Shown here piece after piece: positions 15,580 through 54,653 of a DNA stretch of 57,500 bases. The notes beneath the pieces are model-generated. The model had not been told where the DNA came from. It ran no database searches and worked only from the letters and a program-made list of their open reading frames with translations. The position numbers and the translations under genes are program-made. Location of the stretch: positions 1 to 57,500 of the forward strand of contig NZ_CP009170.1 of assembly GCF_000763575.1 (NCBI RefSeq), written 5' to 3'. Each line of letters begins with the position of its first letter. The first letter of the stretch is position 1. The DNA is from Thermoanaerobacter kivui. GTDB lineage: Bacteria; Bacillota; Thermoanaerobacteria; Thermoanaerobacterales; Thermoanaerobacteraceae.

Positions 15580-15846
15580 CAGGATAAAAAGCGATGAAGG
15601 TGAGGGGTATGCGTGGAGGCTCAAGAGAGCCGGTGGGTGGTGCAAACCGGTGCCGAGGCGCATATTAGATCGCTCTGGAGCTGTATAGCTGAACGGCATG
15701 TAGCTTATTAGGCTATACCGGGATTACCCGTTACAGGTCAAGTTGTAAAACTTGGTGAGGCTATTGCCGTGAGGTAATAGCGAAAACAGGTGGTACCGCG
15801 TGGAGAAAATCCCCGCCCTGTGGCTCAGGGCGGGGAATGATTTTTT
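15580..15846 (+). ncRNA. T-box riboswitch leader of the ilv-leu operon
   Basis: The leader ends with the T-box sequence AGGTGGTACCGCG at 15788-15800 and a terminator hairpin CCCCGCCCTG/CAGGGCGGGG at 15811-15835 followed by T6. The base of stem I pairs AGCGAT (15590-15595) with ATCGCT near 15670, and a second helix pairs TATGCG with CGCATA. This leaves TTAG in the specifier position, so the likely specifier is UUA (leucine), with AUU (isoleucine) the alternative. Uncharged tRNA would stabilise the antiterminator and turn on branched-chain amino acid synthesis. Confidence 0.88.
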
Positions 15847-23045: not shown

Positions 23046-24706
23046 AGTTAAAAGGAGCGCAAGTAGTTATAGAAGTTTTAAAAGAGATGGGCGTTGATAC
23101 TATATTTGGCATACCAGGAGGAGCAGTTATTCCCATTTATGATGCTCTTTATGACTCTGATATAAGGCATATTTTAGCTACTCACGAGCAAATGGCAGCC
23201 CATATGGCAGATGGTTATGCAAGAGTTACGGGAAGGGTAGGGGTTTGCTTTGCTACCTCTGGCCCCGGTTCTACCAATCTTGTAACGGGTATAGCTAATG
23301 CTTATATGGATTCAGTACCTGTTGTGGCGATAACAGGACAGGTTCCTACAAATCTCATAGGGAAAGACGCTTTTCAAGAGGTTGACATAACAGGAATTAC
23401 AATGCCTATAACTAAACACAACTTTATTGTAAAGTCTCCTGATAAACTGGCAGATACAATAAGGCAGGCATTTGCAATAGCCAAAAGTGGAAGGCCTGGT
23501 CCTGTGTTAGTAGATATTCCAAAAGATATACAAAACGCCGATATAGAATATGTAAAAGGAATAGGAGATAGTATTGATATAAAAAACGATATCAATGGAG
23601 TAGTTTCGCAAAAAGAATTAGACAAAGCTATAGAGCTTATTTTGCAAAGTAAAAAACCTGTAATCTTTGCAGGAGGAGGAGTGATTTGGGGAGAAGCATC
23701 AGAGGAACTTATAGAATTTGCAGAGAAGACCAATATACCTGTTGCTACTTCTTTAATGGGGTTAGGATGCTTTCCAGAAGACCATCCTTTGTCATTAGGT
23801 CTTATTGGCATGCATGGAAGCAGATTTGCAAATTTGGCTGTGTATAAATCAGACCTTGTGATAGCAATAGGGACGAGATTTAGCGACAGAGTTGCTGGCA
23901 AAGCAGGGGGACTTGCTCCCAATGCTAAAATAATCCATATTGATATAGATCCTGCAGAATTAGGGAAAAATATAGAAGTAGATGTAGCAGTTATAGGCAA
24001 AGTTAAAGAAGCATTGAAACTTTTAACGGATAAACTTCCATTCATTGAAAGAAAAGAATGGTTAGAGGAAATTTCTTTCTTGAGAGAAAAGCACGGATTG
24101 AAGTATAAAAACGATGAAGTTTTGAGGCCTCAGTGGATAGTAGAAAAAATTCAACAGCTTTCAAACGATGACCTTATAATAGCCACTGAAGTGGGACAAA
24201 ATCAAATGTGGGCTGCGCAGTATTATAAATTTAAACAGCCCAGGACTTTTGTTACCTCAGGAGGACTAGGGACAATGGGCTTTGGGCTTCCTGCTGCAAT
24301 AGGTGCACAAGTGGGAAAGCCAGATAAAAGAGTTGTAAACATTGCAGGTGATGGAAGTTTAAGAATGAATATACATGCACTGGAAACTGCTGCTGTATAT
24401 AATATTCCGGTTATAACGGTACTACTCAACAACCAAACTTTAGGAATGGTAAGACAGTGGCAAAATCTTTTGTATGACAAGAGATTTTCGCAGACAGATT
24501 TGAACGCAAATTTGAATTTTGCTAAGCTTGCAAATGACTTTGGAGTAGAAGGAATAAGAGTTACAACAAAGGAAGAATTCGAAAAAGCTTTTAGAAAAGC
24601 CTATAGCGAAAATAGACCTTTTATGATAGAATGTATTATAGACAAAGATGAGATGGTGCTTCCTTTTATTCCTGCAGGTGGTACTGTTGAAAATACAATT
24701 GGATAA
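23042..24706 (+). CDS. ilvB: Acetolactate synthase large (catalytic) subunit
   Basis: IlvB makes acetolactate and acetohydroxybutyrate using thiamine diphosphate, magnesium and FAD. The 554 residues show the catalytic glutamate in [17 protein letters not shown] near 46-62, the FAD-binding middle domain and the ThDP motif [22 protein letters not shown] near 438-459 with GDGS...N. It is the last ilv gene; only about 4-5 bases after its stop an FMN riboswitch begins. AHAS needs FAD, so this adjacency to riboflavin genes may be meaningful. Confidence 0.96.
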
Positions 24707-24710
24707 AACC

Positions 24711-24884
24711 TTCGGGGATCGGTGAAATTCCGTACCGGCGGTATAGCCCGCGAGCCTTTTGGCAGACTCGGTGAAATTCCGAGGCCGACAGTTAAAGTCT
24801 GGATGGGAGAAGGAGAAATATTCCCCAGGGAATATATTCTCTGGGGTTTTTTAACCCTGAAGGTTTAACCTTCAGGATTTTTTA
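24711..24884 (+). ncRNA. FMN riboswitch (RFN element) with terminators
   Basis: The conserved RFN core is present: GGGATCGGTGAAATTCC, ACCGGCGGTATAGCCCGCGAGCC, GCAGACTCGGTGAAATTCCG and GCCGACAGTTAAAGTCTGGATG, ending with GAGAAGGAG near 24815. Two hairpins follow. One is CCCCAG/CTGGGG at 24823-24846 with T6; the other pairs CCTGAAGGTT with AACCTTCAGG at 24857-24877, followed by six T. FMN binding should favour termination and lower the rib genes. It begins directly after ilvB and no separate promoter is obvious in front. Confidence 0.95.
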
Positions 24885-30451: not shown

Positions 30452-30673
30452 CAAACATAATATTATTGCAATGAAGGGACGAGTAGTAAGTATAAACTTT
30501 TAAGAGAGCTGGTGGTGGGTGCGAACCAGTAAGTTTTACTTATGAATTCCATCCCGGAGCTAAGGTGTAATGACCTTCGGGCGACCGTTAAATCATGTGG
30601 AGGGCTTATTTTAAGCCGAAAGAGGGTGGCAACGCGGTATTCCCGTCCCTTTGTGGGATGGGAATTATTTTTT
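30452..30673 (+). ncRNA. T-box riboswitch of serS
   Basis: The T-box sequence AGGGTGGCAACGCGG is at 30623-30637 and a terminator hairpin ATTCCCGTCCC/GGGATGGGAAT at 30639-30665 is followed by a T-run. Stem I shows AGTAGT on the 5' side and GAATTCCATCCC on the 3' side; the specifier is therefore UCC, a serine codon, followed by the usual purine. This fits control of seryl-tRNA synthetase by uncharged tRNA-Ser(GGA), whose gene is at 45.1 kb in this window. Confidence 0.95.
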
Positions 30674-38466: not shown

Positions 38467-39777
38467 CTATTTACTCATAAACACATCATTAACCCTATCT
38501 TGTAAATATACTTTATAATATTTCCCCGCTGTTATTTGATTATATAAATCATATCCCTCATCAATGCAAGCCTTACATGCATCCCTTGGAATAGAAATGG
38601 CAAATATCTCAACGCCCCAATCAGAACGCGATTGAATTGTATTAACACCTGAGCAATTGGGGCATACCTTAAATTTCTGGATTTGTGTTTCATGTATTCC
38701 ATCAGTATCATAATATATACTTCTGGGCCTCAATATATATTGTTGGTTTTTAATGGTTTCTCTACGAATATCCTCGCGTCTTAGCCAACGGTTGTAAATC
38801 TCATCACATAATCTCTTTATATATTCAGTAATCTCTGGCGATTGTTTGAGTTTTTCAGGATCATAGTCTGGTTCTCTTACATGAGAATAGTCAAGCCCTG
38901 TCATAGCAAGAATTATACCTAGATTTACATAAGGAAGTGCTCCTTCAATTGAATATCCACCTTCTAACACTGCAATATCGGGATTCAATCTATGGGTTAG
39001 CTCTGCATAACCGTGAGCAGTAAACTTCATATTTGTAATAGGATCTGTATAGTGGTTATCTTGACCTGCAGAATTAATAATAAGGTCAGGTTTATATTCT
39101 TTTAATATAGGTATCACCAGATTATCAAGTACATAGAGAAAACCTTCTTCGCCCGTTTCTGGTGGCAAAGGTATATTTATGTTATATCCTATGGCTGACG
39201 GACCTCCAAATTCATCAATAAAACCCGTACCAGGATAAAGAGTCCTTCCATCCTGATGAAAGGATATGTAGAGAGTATCTTTATCATTCCAATATATATC
39301 CTGGGTACCATCACCATGATGGCAGTCTGTATCCACTATGGCTACTTTTTTATTCCCAAATCTTTGTCTTATATTTTCCAGCATAACAGCTTCTATATTA
39401 ATGATGCAAAAACCCCTATCTCCAAATACCACCCTTTGAGCATGATGTCCCGGCGGCCTTACTATAGCAAAGGCCTTATCTACTTCTTTTTTCATAACTG
39501 CTTCGGCAGCTTTTATAGCACCCCCTGCAGATATAAGATGAGATTGGGTTACCCTTGTCATTACATCAGGTACACAAAAATGCACTCTCTCAATATCTTT
39601 TTCAGTAGCTATACCAGGATTATAAAATTTTATTCCCTCAAGATCAGCTATTCCTTCTTCGAATACCTGATCTTGAGTATACAAGAGCCTTTCTTCACGC
39701 TCTGGGTGTGTAGGGCTTATTGCCCAATCAAAAGCCGGAAAAAATACAAGACCCACTTTGTTTTTAGCCTTCAACAT
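38467..39777 (-). CDS. Histone deacetylase-family amidohydrolase with C-terminal zinc ribbon
   Basis: A 436-residue member of the arginase/deacetylase superfamily, which removes acetyl groups from acetyl-lysine or acetyl-polyamines with a zinc ion. The catalytic tandem His is in RPPGHHAQ near 107-114. The metal ligands lie in VDTDCHHGDGTQDIYW near 147-162 (Asp and His) and in SAGQDNHYTDP near 240-250. Residues about 375-410 add a C-x2-C and C-x2-C pair (CPNCSG ... CKAC), which looks like a zinc ribbon and is uncommon in the family. The start, with GAGAGGTG before the ATG, overlaps the end of the hydantoinase gene by 14 bases, so the two are translationally coupled. Confidence 0.85.
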   Translation of the reverse strand: MLKAKNKVGLVFFPAFDWAISPTHPEREERLLYTQDQVFEEGIADLEGIKFYNPGIATEKDIERVHFCVPDVMTRVTQSHLISAGGAIKAAEAVMKKEVDKAFAIVRPPGHHAQRVVFGDRGFCIINIEAVMLENIRQRFGNKKVAIVDTDCHHGDGTQDIYWNDKDTLYISFHQDGRTLYPGTGFIDEFGGPSAIGYNINIPLPPETGEEGFLYVLDNLVIPILKEYKPDLIINSAGQDNHYTDPITNMKFTAHGYAELTHRLNPDIAVLEGGYSIEGALPYVNLGIILAMTGLDYSHVREPDYDPEKLKQSPEITEYIKRLCDEIYNRWLRREDIRRETIKNQQYILRPRSIYYDTDGIHETQIQKFKVCPNCSGVNTIQSRSDWGVEIFAISIPRDACKACIDEGYDLYNQITAGKYYKVYLQDRVNDVFMSK

Positions 39778-41443
39778 GATTTACACCTCTCATTTCATAC
39801 AATAATCCAGGCTTTATCTGAGCTCTCACCCTTATATTTTTACCACAAGTATAGAAACCTCTTACCATATTGAAACTCGACTTTTCTGTTATTTCACCCT
39901 CAACTTTCTTATCAGAAGCTCCTACGACGGAAGCCATCTCTTTTAAAATTTCCAACGCTTTTTGTTCAGCTTTTTCTATAGTAAAGTCTCTGCCAATTTT
40001 CTCATATATCCCCATCTCAGGTACTGAAAGTTTTCCTTCAGCAGTATCAGCTAAAACTGTTACTTCAGCAGTTGGCTTAGCAAGAGCTGCTCCTATTGCA
40101 TTGGCTATCTCATAGTTTTCTGGAACATAGCAAGGAAGATTAAATTCTTTTTCTAATAAAGGAGCTAAAGCCTTAGCGGGCCCCCCTATGATAGAAATAT
40201 ACTTAGGTTTTAATTTTTTCCCATATAACAGTTCTTTTACTGTATAAACGGGTCGACTGTTAATTTCAACAAGAATGTCATTTACCTCTTGTTTTATTAT
40301 ATCTCCCATTTTTTTGTAAATAAGTTTTGCAGTTGCCTTCGCATCTAGTTGTAATTTTTCTCCCAAATCTTTCATCGCTGAAATTGCCCGTTCTTTATCG
40401 CCAAAATCTAGGAGACCTAACACTATCATAGCATCACTAGGGGTAGGTACTAAACCACCTATCGCCATCGGAGGTCCTTCACGGTGAGGCCCTATTTTTA
40501 TTTCACCATTCTCAACATGTATTGCACTGTCCCCTCCAAGGCCTATAGAAACACTATAAATTGCTCTTACCAATGTATTATAATTAGCTATTTTTATACC
40601 AAACGGCTCAAAAAGTGGAACCCCATCCGCCACAAAAGAGATGTCTGTTGTAGTACCGCCAATATCCAAAAGAACCCCATCTTTATTGCCAGGATTAAAA
40701 GCGAGAGCTCCCATTAGACTAGCAGCAGGTCCTGACAAAATAGTATTTACCGGATATTTCTGTGCTGCCTCCAAACTTATGGTACCGCCATCGGCTTTCA
40801 GGACATTGACAGGAACATTGATATTTTCTTTTTTCATGGTCTCTTTTATACTTTCGCAAAATGTTCTAAAGACGTGATATACTGCAGAATTTAAGTAGGA
40901 AGTGTAAACTCTCCGTGGAAAGTTTAGCCTTCCTGAAAGAGTGTGTCCCATAGTCACAGGAGAAAATTTATCCTCCAAAAACTTGCAAATTTTTATTTCA
41001 TGTATAGGATTTCTGACAGAAAATTTAGCTACAACTGCACATGCTTCTATATTCTTTTCCTTGAATTTTATCACAGCTTCTTGTATTTCCTCCGGTTTAA
41101 AGGATTTTATTTCTCTACCGCGATGGTCCACATATCCTGTAATAAAAATATTCTCGCTTCCACATGCCAAAAAAGAAGGTTCCATGCCTGGACCACTTTC
41201 TATAATCATGCCAACAGGGGCAGTTTTACCTTCTACAATAGCATTTGTTGATATAGTTGTACTTAAATTTATATGACTAATACTTGAGATATCCTTACCT
41301 TTAAGCAGGTGATTTAAAGTTTCCCATATGGATCCAAATAAATTAGTGTGATCAGTAGGAGTCTTAACCGCATCTATAATATTGCCCCTATCAATAATTA
41401 CGGCATCAACATGGGTTCCTCCCATATCCAATCCCACAATCAA
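39764..41443 (-). CDS. Hydantoinase/oxoprolinase family protein (HyuA-like)
   Basis: A 559-residue protein of the hydantoinase A/acetone carboxylase beta/5-oxoprolinase group, ATP-dependent amide or imide ring hydrolases with an actin-like fold. The N-terminal phosphate loop MIVGLDMGGTHVDAVIID, the second phosphate motif VLLDIGGTTTDISFVADGVP near 245-264 and IGGPAKALAPLLE near 405 are visible. It is shorter than typical HyuA and no HyuB partner lies nearby. The start is TTG at 41443 with AGGGGGT upstream. The only neighbour in the operon is the deacetylase-family gene. The substrate cannot be told. Confidence 0.82.
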   Translation of the reverse strand: MIVGLDMGGTHVDAVIIDRGNIIDAVKTPTDHTNLFGSIWETLNHLLKGKDISSISHINLSTTISTNAIVEGKTAPVGMIIESGPGMEPSFLACGSENIFITGYVDHRGREIKSFKPEEIQEAVIKFKEKNIEACAVVAKFSVRNPIHEIKICKFLEDKFSPVTMGHTLSGRLNFPRRVYTSYLNSAVYHVFRTFCESIKETMKKENINVPVNVLKADGGTISLEAAQKYPVNTILSGPAASLMGALAFNPGNKDGVLLDIGGTTTDISFVADGVPLFEPFGIKIANYNTLVRAIYSVSIGLGGDSAIHVENGEIKIGPHREGPPMAIGGLVPTPSDAMIVLGLLDFGDKERAISAMKDLGEKLQLDAKATAKLIYKKMGDIIKQEVNDILVEINSRPVYTVKELLYGKKLKPKYISIIGGPAKALAPLLEKEFNLPCYVPENYEIANAIGAALAKPTAEVTVLADTAEGKLSVPEMGIYEKIGRDFTIEKAEQKALEILKEMASVVGASDKKVEGEITEKSSFNMVRGFYTCGKNIRVRAQIKPGLLYEMRGVNHVEG

Positions 41444-41904
41444 TTTTTATACCCCCTATCTCCATATTTTGTGTAACAACTGTCCATGTTTAGCAAAATA
41501 CATATCATGAAAGAAGGCATTATACATTTATTCACAAGTCTTTGAACTCTTTTTATTAATCTATCTTCCTTTATTTATTTAAGTATTCTGTGAATTTTTG
41601 AAGTTCCTTAAAACCTTTAAAATTTTGTATATTACTTTAACATAAGCATTTGTGTTTTGTGAAATTTGTCGAAGTGTCCTATGATAATAAGAAAATACCT
41701 TTTTCGTATATCGATGTACAACTACATTATATCACATAGTAAAATAAAATGAACAAATTTCAAGACAAAAACTTCCGAAATTTCTCCAAAAGTATTTACC
41801 AGTTATATCTTTCACAAATCTAATGTTTATTATATTTTAACTTATCTTATCAAATACATCTGTCAAATATAGATTAAATAAGTCAAAGAGATGTCAGGAA
41901 TCTC
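41444..41904. other. Gene-free stretch upstream of the hydantoinase gene
   Basis: No gene recognised in 461 AT-rich bases. On the minus strand an extended -10, TGATATAAT, lies at 41726-41734 and could start a leader of about 275 bases for the hydantoinase-deacetylase operon. An imperfect inverted pair, GTTTTGTGAAATTTG near 41657-41671 and CAAATTTC...ACAAAAAC near 41754-41772, surrounds it. Confidence 0.4.
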
Positions 41905-42060
41905 CTATTTATATTTACTCCCAAGGTATTGCATTGTGTCATTGTTGATGGGATACGTTCTTGCAATACCGTGGTCATGGCCGTTAAAAACAACATCTAC
42001 ATGATATTTATCAAATATAGGTGTAAATGCTTTTTTAATATCCTCATTTGTTCTTGTTGC
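41905..42060 (-). pseudogene. C-terminal remnant of a metallophosphoesterase
   Basis: The minus strand reads TNEDIKKAFTPIFDKYHVDV then VFNGHDHGIARTYPI, ending at a stop at 41905. GHDH with the preceding hydrophobic strand VDVVFNGHDH is the last metal motif of calcineurin-like or purple-acid phosphatases. An in-frame stop and the 3' end of phoA lie immediately upstream, so the N-terminal part is gone. Confidence 0.75.
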
Positions 42061-45666: not shown

Positions 45667-46988
45667 CTATAGATGAGAAAATTTAATAACAAATATTACC
45701 ATTAGATAGATACACTTTATCTAAGCCAATTTTAGTTGCTCAAAAATCTCATCGATAGGTATATTATTTTTAGCTTGATCATAGTTCCATTGAATACGCT
45801 GCTTTTGTACATCTTTACGAACTATAACTATTCCACAACCAAATTGACAATATTTATCACTTGAAACTGTACAATACAGGTATGTCAATGATATAAGACA
45901 TAATAACCTATCTATTGATTTTGTAGAGCGTACTCGATATGTATTTAAGCCAAGGTTGTTCTTTGTCTGCCTGAAAAAAATCTCTATGGGTCACCTCTGA
46001 CTGTAGTAATTTAGAATAGTCTCAGTATTTAGTTCAGTATCAGTGCATAAAAATGCATGTAGAGCTTTTTGATTTTTAAAAGCTTTTTCAGGCCAGCATA
46101 TTAGAACTACAGCATTATCTATCCCATTTAAAGCACCTTCATAACGATATACCCAGTAATTAGAACCTTTCACTGTAACGAGGTGAACTTCGTTCTTATC
46201 AATATACTGGGCAAAGTCTTTTATCTGGATGCGAATCCCTTTGGGATATATAATGCGGTTGATTTTAAGCGCACCAATAAGATGATAGCCTTGCTTAAAG
46301 TGTGCATTAATTACTTTTTCATTTGCAAACCAGGAATCACAAAGACCATATGCTGGCCCTTTGGGTATCGGGAGTGTTGATACCATAATGTAGTATGGCA
46401 ATACTATTCTGCCACAAGATATCACCATAGCAAGAAATTGATGGTCCCAAACCTGTTTTCCTTTTAAATGCGATTGATGAAATCCTGTTGCTTGAATAGG
46501 ATGTTTAGCCTGTAACGAAGGCTTGGTCTTTTCAGCAATAGTATCATCAAATATCACAAACAAAGGACTTTTATGGGTTGAGAAAGTTGATAAATAATAC
46601 GAATAACTTCTCGCCTTATAGCTCTCCATGCATATTCTATATTCCAAACACCTTGGCTTAAAAATTTGCCAAAGGTAGTTCTATGACAATGTGCAAAGCT
46701 TAAATTAACAATATCAGTAACAGTGCCACTGTAACCTTTTTGAACAGCAGCGATAATAAATTCCACAATATGGCGAATAACAGGTTTGGTGAAGTATAGC
46801 ATAAAATTTAATTTAAAAAGGTACTGGTAAATTGCTGAGTTTTCTGTTATTCTATTATCATGAGACATATGCTCCACTCCTGTTATTGATTTTTTTGTGG
46901 TAATTAAAGTTATATCACAGAAGTGAGCATTTGTCTCTATAATTTTATTATGTGGAATTTATTGTAATCGTATTTTCTCATCTATAGT
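45667..46988 (-). mobile_element. IS4-like insertion sequence, inactive
   Basis: Perfect 16-base terminal inverted repeats, CTATAGATGAGAAAAT at 45667-45682 and its complement at 46973-46988, enclose one broken transposase on the minus strand. Total length about 1.32 kb. The repeat similarity continues imperfectly outward into GCAATTATA/TATAATTAC, so the exact ends and the target duplication are uncertain. Confidence 0.8.
45721..46877 (-). pseudogene. Broken IS4-family transposase
   Basis: The N-terminal part (46554-46877, MSHDNRITENSAIYQYLFKL) and the main part (45991-46647) are in different frames, so a frameshift lies near 46.57-46.60 kb. The main part carries the first catalytic Asp in FVIFDDTIAEKTKPS and a second Asp in GLCDSWFANEK. 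At 45991-45993 a TGA stands where the YREK motif needs tryptophan: YYSQR-stop-PIEIFFRQTKNNLG. Reading past it gives a normal C-terminus to a TAG at 45721. Two lesions make the gene inactive. Confidence 0.85.
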
Positions 46989-49370: not shown

Positions 49371-49641
49371 GGCCGTACTAGATGGGGAGGTAGCGGTGCC
49401 CTGTAACCTGCAATCCGCTATAGCAGGGTCGAAGTCCCAGGCTGAGGCCTGACCATTGTAAGGTCTGGCATAAGTAAGTGGTGTTGATGCTTGAGTCCTG
49501 CGCAACGGAAATTTGCGAACCCCGTCAGGTCCGGAAGGAAGCAGCGGTAAGCAAACACTTCCGTGTGCCGCAGGGGCGCTTGAGTGGAGCTAACTGCTTA
49601 TGTAACGCTTATGGTGGCAGGTCGAAGCTGGGTGTACGGCC
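49371..49641 (+). ncRNA. ffs: Signal recognition particle RNA, large Firmicute type
   Basis: About 271 nt. The 5' end GGCCGTAC pairs with GTACGGCC at the 3' end. The Alu-domain part GGGAGGTAGCGGTGCCCTGTAACC is near the 5' end and the universal S-domain hairpin GTCAGGTCCGGAAGGAAGCAGC is near 49525-49546. This long form with an Alu domain is that of Bacillus and many Clostridia. It pairs with Ffh to target membrane proteins. Confidence 0.96.
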
Positions 49642-54562: not shown

Positions 54563-54569
54563 AAACAAC

Positions 54570-54653
54570 GTGAGGCGATGGAGCTCGCCATAAATGCGGA
54601 AACGCTGATGGCTCCTATTAGGATGTGATATAAGGCCTAATAGGGGCTTTTTA
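54570..54653 (+). ncRNA. Fluoride riboswitch (crcB motif)
   Basis: GGCGATGGAGCTCGCC at 54574-54589, followed by ATAAATGCGGAAACGCTGATGGCTCCTA, is the crcB pseudoknot core. A terminator is formed by GCTCCTATTAGG and CCTAATAGGGGC with a T-run at 54648-54652. Fluoride should prevent the terminator and switch on the two crcB genes. Confidence 0.95.

Follow-up and report, generated by a model that had tools for sequence, protein, structure and literature searches.

The window, i.e., the 57,500 nucleotides of Thermoanaerobacter kivui DNA analyzed here, contains two overlapping genes on the minus strand, which encode a protein of the histone deacetylase (HDAC) family and a HyuA-type protein:

38467-39777, minus strand: HDAC-family gene; 436 aa, ATG start; zinc amidohydrolase with an extra C-terminal domain (PF00850, 5e-65)
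39764-41443, minus strand: hyuA-type gene; 559 aa, TTG start; ATP-binding (alpha/kinase) subunit lacking the C-terminal domain usual in HyuA
39764-39777, minus strand: overlap of both reading frames; 14 bp, from the ORF coordinates

Both reading frames and the 14 shared bases reported in the initial annotation were confirmed, and a plausible ribosome site is present upstream of both starts (hyuA TTG and hdac ATG). Based on Pfam, the HDAC protein matches PF00850 with 220 bits (cut-off 27.9), and the HyuA protein matches PF05378 (1e-32) and PF01968 (7e-53); in the 2.40-Mb T. kivui genome, these two are the sole PF00850 and PF01968 proteins. The HyuA protein had been described as short and without HyuB nearby; consistently, HyuB (PF02538) has no match in the whole genome and not merely around the pair. 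Because the neighbors of the pair in the window are genes for an enoyl-CoA hydratase and an alkaline phosphatase, the local context is uninformative. At the Rfam gathering threshold, no riboswitch or other RNA leader was detected at the pair.

The HDAC protein belongs to a sharply defined subfamily (42 homologues at 49-88% identity) that has kept all the catalytic residues of the HDAC family (H111, H112, D151, H153, D240 and Y275, invariant in 42 sequences) and in which a long N-terminal motif (FPAFDW...HPERE) is also invariant. By comparison with the family (HDAC8 D178/H180), we take D151 and H153 to be metal ligands. The features of the protein map as follows:

39442-39447, minus strand: catalytic His pair H111-H112; invariant in 42/42
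39310-39333, minus strand: metal-binding stretch DTDCHHGD, D149-D156; D149, D151, H153, H154 and D156 invariant
39052-39063, minus strand: subfamily signature QDNH, residues 239-242, holding the third metal ligand D240; all four invariant in 42/42
38953-38955, minus strand: transition-state tyrosine Y275; invariant
38470-38769, minus strand: extra C-terminal domain, residues 337-436; not covered by the structural match to known HDACs; pLDDT about 89-98
38566-38664, minus strand: zinc-ribbon-like four-Cys motif C372-x2-C375 ... C401-x2-C404; all four Cys invariant in 42/42

Residues 5-333 of the structural model (pLDDT 90.3) match HdaH (Z 42.1, rmsd 2.0 Å over 321 residues), and the rows of the structural alignment span residues 5-336 only, leaving the C-terminal domain outside. 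No Pfam family matches this domain of ~100 aa above cut-off, and the sub-threshold matches are of the zinc-ribbon and DnaJ types only. Its C-x2-C/C-x2-C arrangement, pointed out previously, is borne out by the invariance of Cys 372, 375, 401 and 404 in the 42 homologues, and the motif is predicted to bind zinc. Like the class-II-like deacylases Kdac1, HdaH and HDAH, the protein has the HDAC fold (Z about 42, rmsd 2.0 Å, 321 residues) and the full set of catalytic residues; however, identity to these proteins is about 30%, and the T. kivui protein differs in the invariant QDNH and FPAFDW...HPERE motifs, in the added ~100-aa four-Cys domain and in being always found together with HyuA. The main text of a recent survey of bacterial deacylase clusters (Graf et al. 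2024, PMC11532494) neither discusses the pair nor mentions any Clostridia, Thermoanaerobacter or Desulfo species.

In the HyuA protein, the nucleotide-binding motifs are likewise intact:

41405-41428, minus strand: phosphate motif DMGGTHVD, residues 6-13; D6, G8, G9 and D13 invariant in 29 homologues
40643-40666, minus strand: phosphate motif DIGGTTTD, residues 260-267; D260, G262, G263, T264, T265 and D267 invariant in 29 homologues
40175-40186, minus strand: adenosine motif GGPA, residues 420-423; G420 and P422 invariant, G421 in 27/29
39818-39874, minus strand: conserved C-terminal tail FNMVRGFYTCGKNIRVRAQ, residues 524-542; F524 and R538 invariant, most others nearly so

The top structural match of the HyuA model (pLDDT 90.6) is acetone carboxylase beta (5svc_B; Z 35.1, rmsd 4.1 Å over 513 residues); the match to 5l9w_b has a Z of 26.0 and an rmsd of 5.8 Å over 508 residues, and the other best matches are Apc, caprolactamase alpha and N-methylhydantoinase. 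While the acetone and acetophenone carboxylases (Acx, Apc) thus give the best matches, identity is about 20% and the pair lacks their carboxylase partner subunits. The HyuAB, OplAB and CapAB systems have in common with the pair a HyuA-type alpha subunit with DxGGT and DxGGTxTD motifs, an arrangement of two genes with alpha first and a second zinc site, which is expected here. In contrast to these systems, the alpha subunit of the pair is about 130 residues shorter and without PF19278, and the partner is not HyuB but a protein of the unrelated HDAC fold. PF19278 is present in the canonical HyuA encoded beside HyuB in one genome (G049); in three members of the HyuA subfamily studied here, it had no match at E 1. 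The conserved tail at residues 524-542 is a candidate partner-binding element. A HyuA-type protein of another kind, of ~650 aa and also without PF19278, is encoded in a genome without a HyuB match (G103, L194:2300-4264), and proteins of this type occur in several sampled genomes.

In an even sample of 249 genomes from the window's phylum, the HDAC subfamily is present in 102 (leaving out G038, which has a different HDAC) and the HyuA subfamily in 100 (omitting nine genomes that match only longer HyuA relatives, at ≤262 bits). Conservation of the two genes as neighbors had been set beforehand as the point on which the proposed link could fail; 99 genomes carry both genes, always on the same contig and adjacent, and co-occurrence gave a Fisher p of about 7e-65 before the exceptions were resolved. 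Contig ends or a deletion remnant account for the four genomes that seem to hold one gene alone: the HyuA end (G126) or the HDAC end (G133) is at a contig edge, the HDAC runs into the contig end (G239), and in G216 (L192:5425-6370, minus strand) the HyuA start (residues 1-76) is fused by a deletion to the HDAC end (from residue 205), which is either a remnant of both genes or an assembly error. The pairing is also exclusive. Among the loci of >6 kb from the first genome searches, the HDAC cluster is found in 73 and the HyuA cluster in 70, and the next-commonest neighbor is found in ≤12. An overlapping or touching pair, with an overlap of 4-29 bases in most homologous loci, recurs across many families and several phyla, which far exceeds chance, and adjacency is kept in the few lineages in which the gene order is swapped (L087/L088, L190). 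A few loci fit less well: no HyuA is seen within the 1.7-1.9 kb of sequence covered upstream in L055 and L076, and in L080 hyuA and hdac are 1.8 kb apart. The genus of T. kivui itself is patchy, with the HDAC in 3/10 genomes, including T. kivui. HyuB (PF02538) is missing from 82 of the 102 pair genomes and, where present, lies elsewhere in the genome and never near the pair. Judging by the named taxa, the carriers of the pair are presumably anaerobes. In three genomes (G198, G221 and G264), the HyuA match crosses one TGA, which is probably its own stop codon ahead of the overlapping HDAC start.

Altogether, these findings strongly support a single functional unit made up of the two genes. The initial annotation had proposed two amide hydrolases of one pathway, with a cyclic or N-acylated compound as a possible substrate; the conserved adjacency upholds the unit, but not the two hydrolases, since HyuA is an activator. 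HyuA-type subunits are ASKHA-fold, ATP-dependent activators that normally need a metal subunit for hydrolysis (PMC8453981, PMC5214803). Caprolactamase and related enzymes work in two steps: alpha transfers a phosphate to the substrate or to bicarbonate, and the reaction is then completed at a zinc or manganese site in another subunit. In the known family, this separate Asp-His-Asp-His zinc/manganese subunit couples or hydrolyzes, the alpha gene comes first, and the activated intermediate probably travels through a tunnel in caprolactamase-type enzymes (PMC8453981, PMC5214803). With the alpha subunit present, the beta subunit absent, and a zinc amidohydrolase as the invariable partner, the simplest reading is that the metal subunit has been replaced. 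We therefore suggest, with a probability of roughly 45%, that the pair is an obligate two-subunit, ATP-driven amidohydrolase of anaerobes in which the HDAC replaces HyuB, and that it has a housekeeping or repair job. According to this model, the HyuA-type subunit would bind ATP and phosphorylate to activate a carbonyl (or bicarbonate), like the alpha subunits of hydantoinase, 5-oxoprolinase and caprolactamase; the HDAC-type subunit would provide the zinc site that opens or hydrolyzes the activated amide in place of HyuB; the four-Cys domain and the shortened HyuA C-terminus would probably serve in docking or substrate recognition; and the role would be stand-alone housekeeping or damage repair rather than a catabolic pathway. 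The pairing, its exclusiveness, the intact active-site residues of both proteins and the lack of HyuB are observed, whereas the physical complex, its use of ATP, the order of the chemistry and the class of substrate are inferred. Several points speak against a two-subunit enzyme: HDAC and HyuB are unrelated folds, and a HyuA-HDAC interface would therefore need to evolve anew; bacterial HDACs work without ATP; and none of the candidate substrates has support.

In keeping with the initial annotation, which knew of no described system made up of these two proteins, we found no paper on a HyuA-HDAC pair in the open-access literature. Each fold is known, and it is their obligate combination that appears to be new. 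Because the pair is so tightly bound and widespread among anaerobes, it almost certainly represents a real enzyme with a general job that does not yet have a name. If the HDAC replaces HyuB, the pair would, to our knowledge, be the first case of an HDAC-superfamily member powered by ATP and of a hydantoinase-family enzyme whose metal subunit has been swapped. Routine annotation would then also need correcting, since "histone deacetylase" and "hydantoinase" would name two parts of one enzyme in these genomes.

Alternatively, the two proteins could be separate enzymes of one short pathway that form no complex, with acyl removal followed by an ATP-dependent step on the product. Both active sites look complete, and translational coupling by itself suits pathway partners. 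However, genes of one pathway are usually joined in some lineages by a transporter, a regulator or more enzymes, and now and then stand alone; neither is seen here, and HyuA by itself has no hydrolytic subunit, making this explanation rather unlikely.

A different kind of explanation is that the pair acts on a base, a tRNA modification or a translation factor, which it would alter or repair, with the Cys domain binding nucleic acid. Of 40 family representatives, 15 have mutS and mutL on either side of the pair, in an operon with the order miaB - ylbF/ymcA - mutS - hyuA - hdac - mutL - PF04445 protein - miaA - hfq, mostly with small gaps or overlaps. In Thermodesulfobacteriota-type loci, the next gene after hdac is often rlmN (Desulfarculales/Syntrophobacteraceae-type loci) or epmA (Desulfobacterales), and uvdE, dprA, argS, hflX and mazG are isolated neighbors in single cases. 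An action on nucleic acid or translation would explain the mutS-mutL-miaA-miaB operon and the rlmN/epmA adjacency. Based on trees, however, the mutS-mutL placement was most plausibly inherited from the ancestor of one large section of the family and abandoned a few times; having essentially one origin, it is not repeated independent evidence. Moreover, outside this arrangement the neighbors vary, and many are unrelated. The context thus hints at nucleic-acid or translation upkeep through few independent events. In the operon, the HDAC-HyuA evolutionary distances have the highest correlation of all gene pairs (r 0.77), which, with a small sample (n 15) and partly vertical descent, is weakly consistent with the two-subunit reading.

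The obvious tRNA hydantoin also fails a test of co-occurrence with the pair. TcdA-type enzymes form cyclic t6A, a hydantoin, at tRNA position 37 (PMC13139853), and T. kivui carries a TcdA-like gene next to aspS. Across the genomes, TcdA shows no association with the pair, being present in 75/102 pair genomes versus 103/147 others (p 0.57), and the 27 of 102 pair genomes that lack it argue that cyclic t6A is not an obligate substrate. We consider the nucleic-acid explanation unlikely. Its combination with the proposed subunit swap, namely, a new class of ATP-driven zinc amidohydrolase (hydantoinase alpha kinase plus HDAC) that mends or edits a nucleic acid or a translation component in anaerobes and ancestrally resided in the mutS-mutL-miaA-miaB operon, we consider decidedly unlikely; its target might be, for instance, a damaged base or a modified one near tRNA position 37.

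HyuA could instead serve the HDAC as an ATP-dependent activator, reactivase or chaperone, with the HDAC alone acting on acyl-lysine proteins or acylated small molecules. Reactivases and dehydratase activators of the ASKHA fold are among the weaker structural matches, and the HDAC domain is class-II-like and close to Kdac1 and HdaH. Nevertheless, the closest HyuA structures are alpha-type subunits of hydantoinases and ketone carboxylases rather than activators, and both Pfam domains of the hydantoinase family score above cut-off, so that we regard this role as very unlikely.

Finally, we regard it as highly improbable that the pair functionally replaces PxpABC by hydrolyzing 5-oxoproline, which arises spontaneously in all cells (PMC13274462), or a similar cyclized amino acid: PxpA (PF03746) is absent from the T. 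kivui genome and is found in 21/102 pair genomes versus 54/147 others (p 0.0075, kinship ignored), but this anti-correlation is mild, is based on counts that ignore relatedness, and includes 21 genomes with both PxpA and the pair. A link to AmmeMemoRadiSam, considered from a radical-SAM neighbor in two related loci (L039 and L042), was rejected; Memo (PF01875) has no visible tie to the pair.

Several minor observations were made at and around the pair. Genes for protein-L-isoaspartate methyltransferase adjoin it in two distant lineages (L034:5657-6232 and L154:4640-5242), possibly as a hint at damage repair or by chance. In the window, the alkaline phosphatase encoded beside the pair has a C-terminus that looks altered, and directly after its gene, at 41900-42040 (minus strand), lies a remnant reading ...KAFTPIFDKYHVDVVFNGHDHGIARTYPI..., apparently a metallophosphoesterase end. 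Two overlapping frames at 45991-46877 (minus strand) resemble a broken transposase, the longer one without a Pfam match at 1e-8. The window also contains RNAs at the Rfam gathering level:

15585-15823: T-box
30462-30653: T-box
24704-24818: FMN riboswitch
54565-54624: fluoride riboswitch
49373-49639: large SRP RNA
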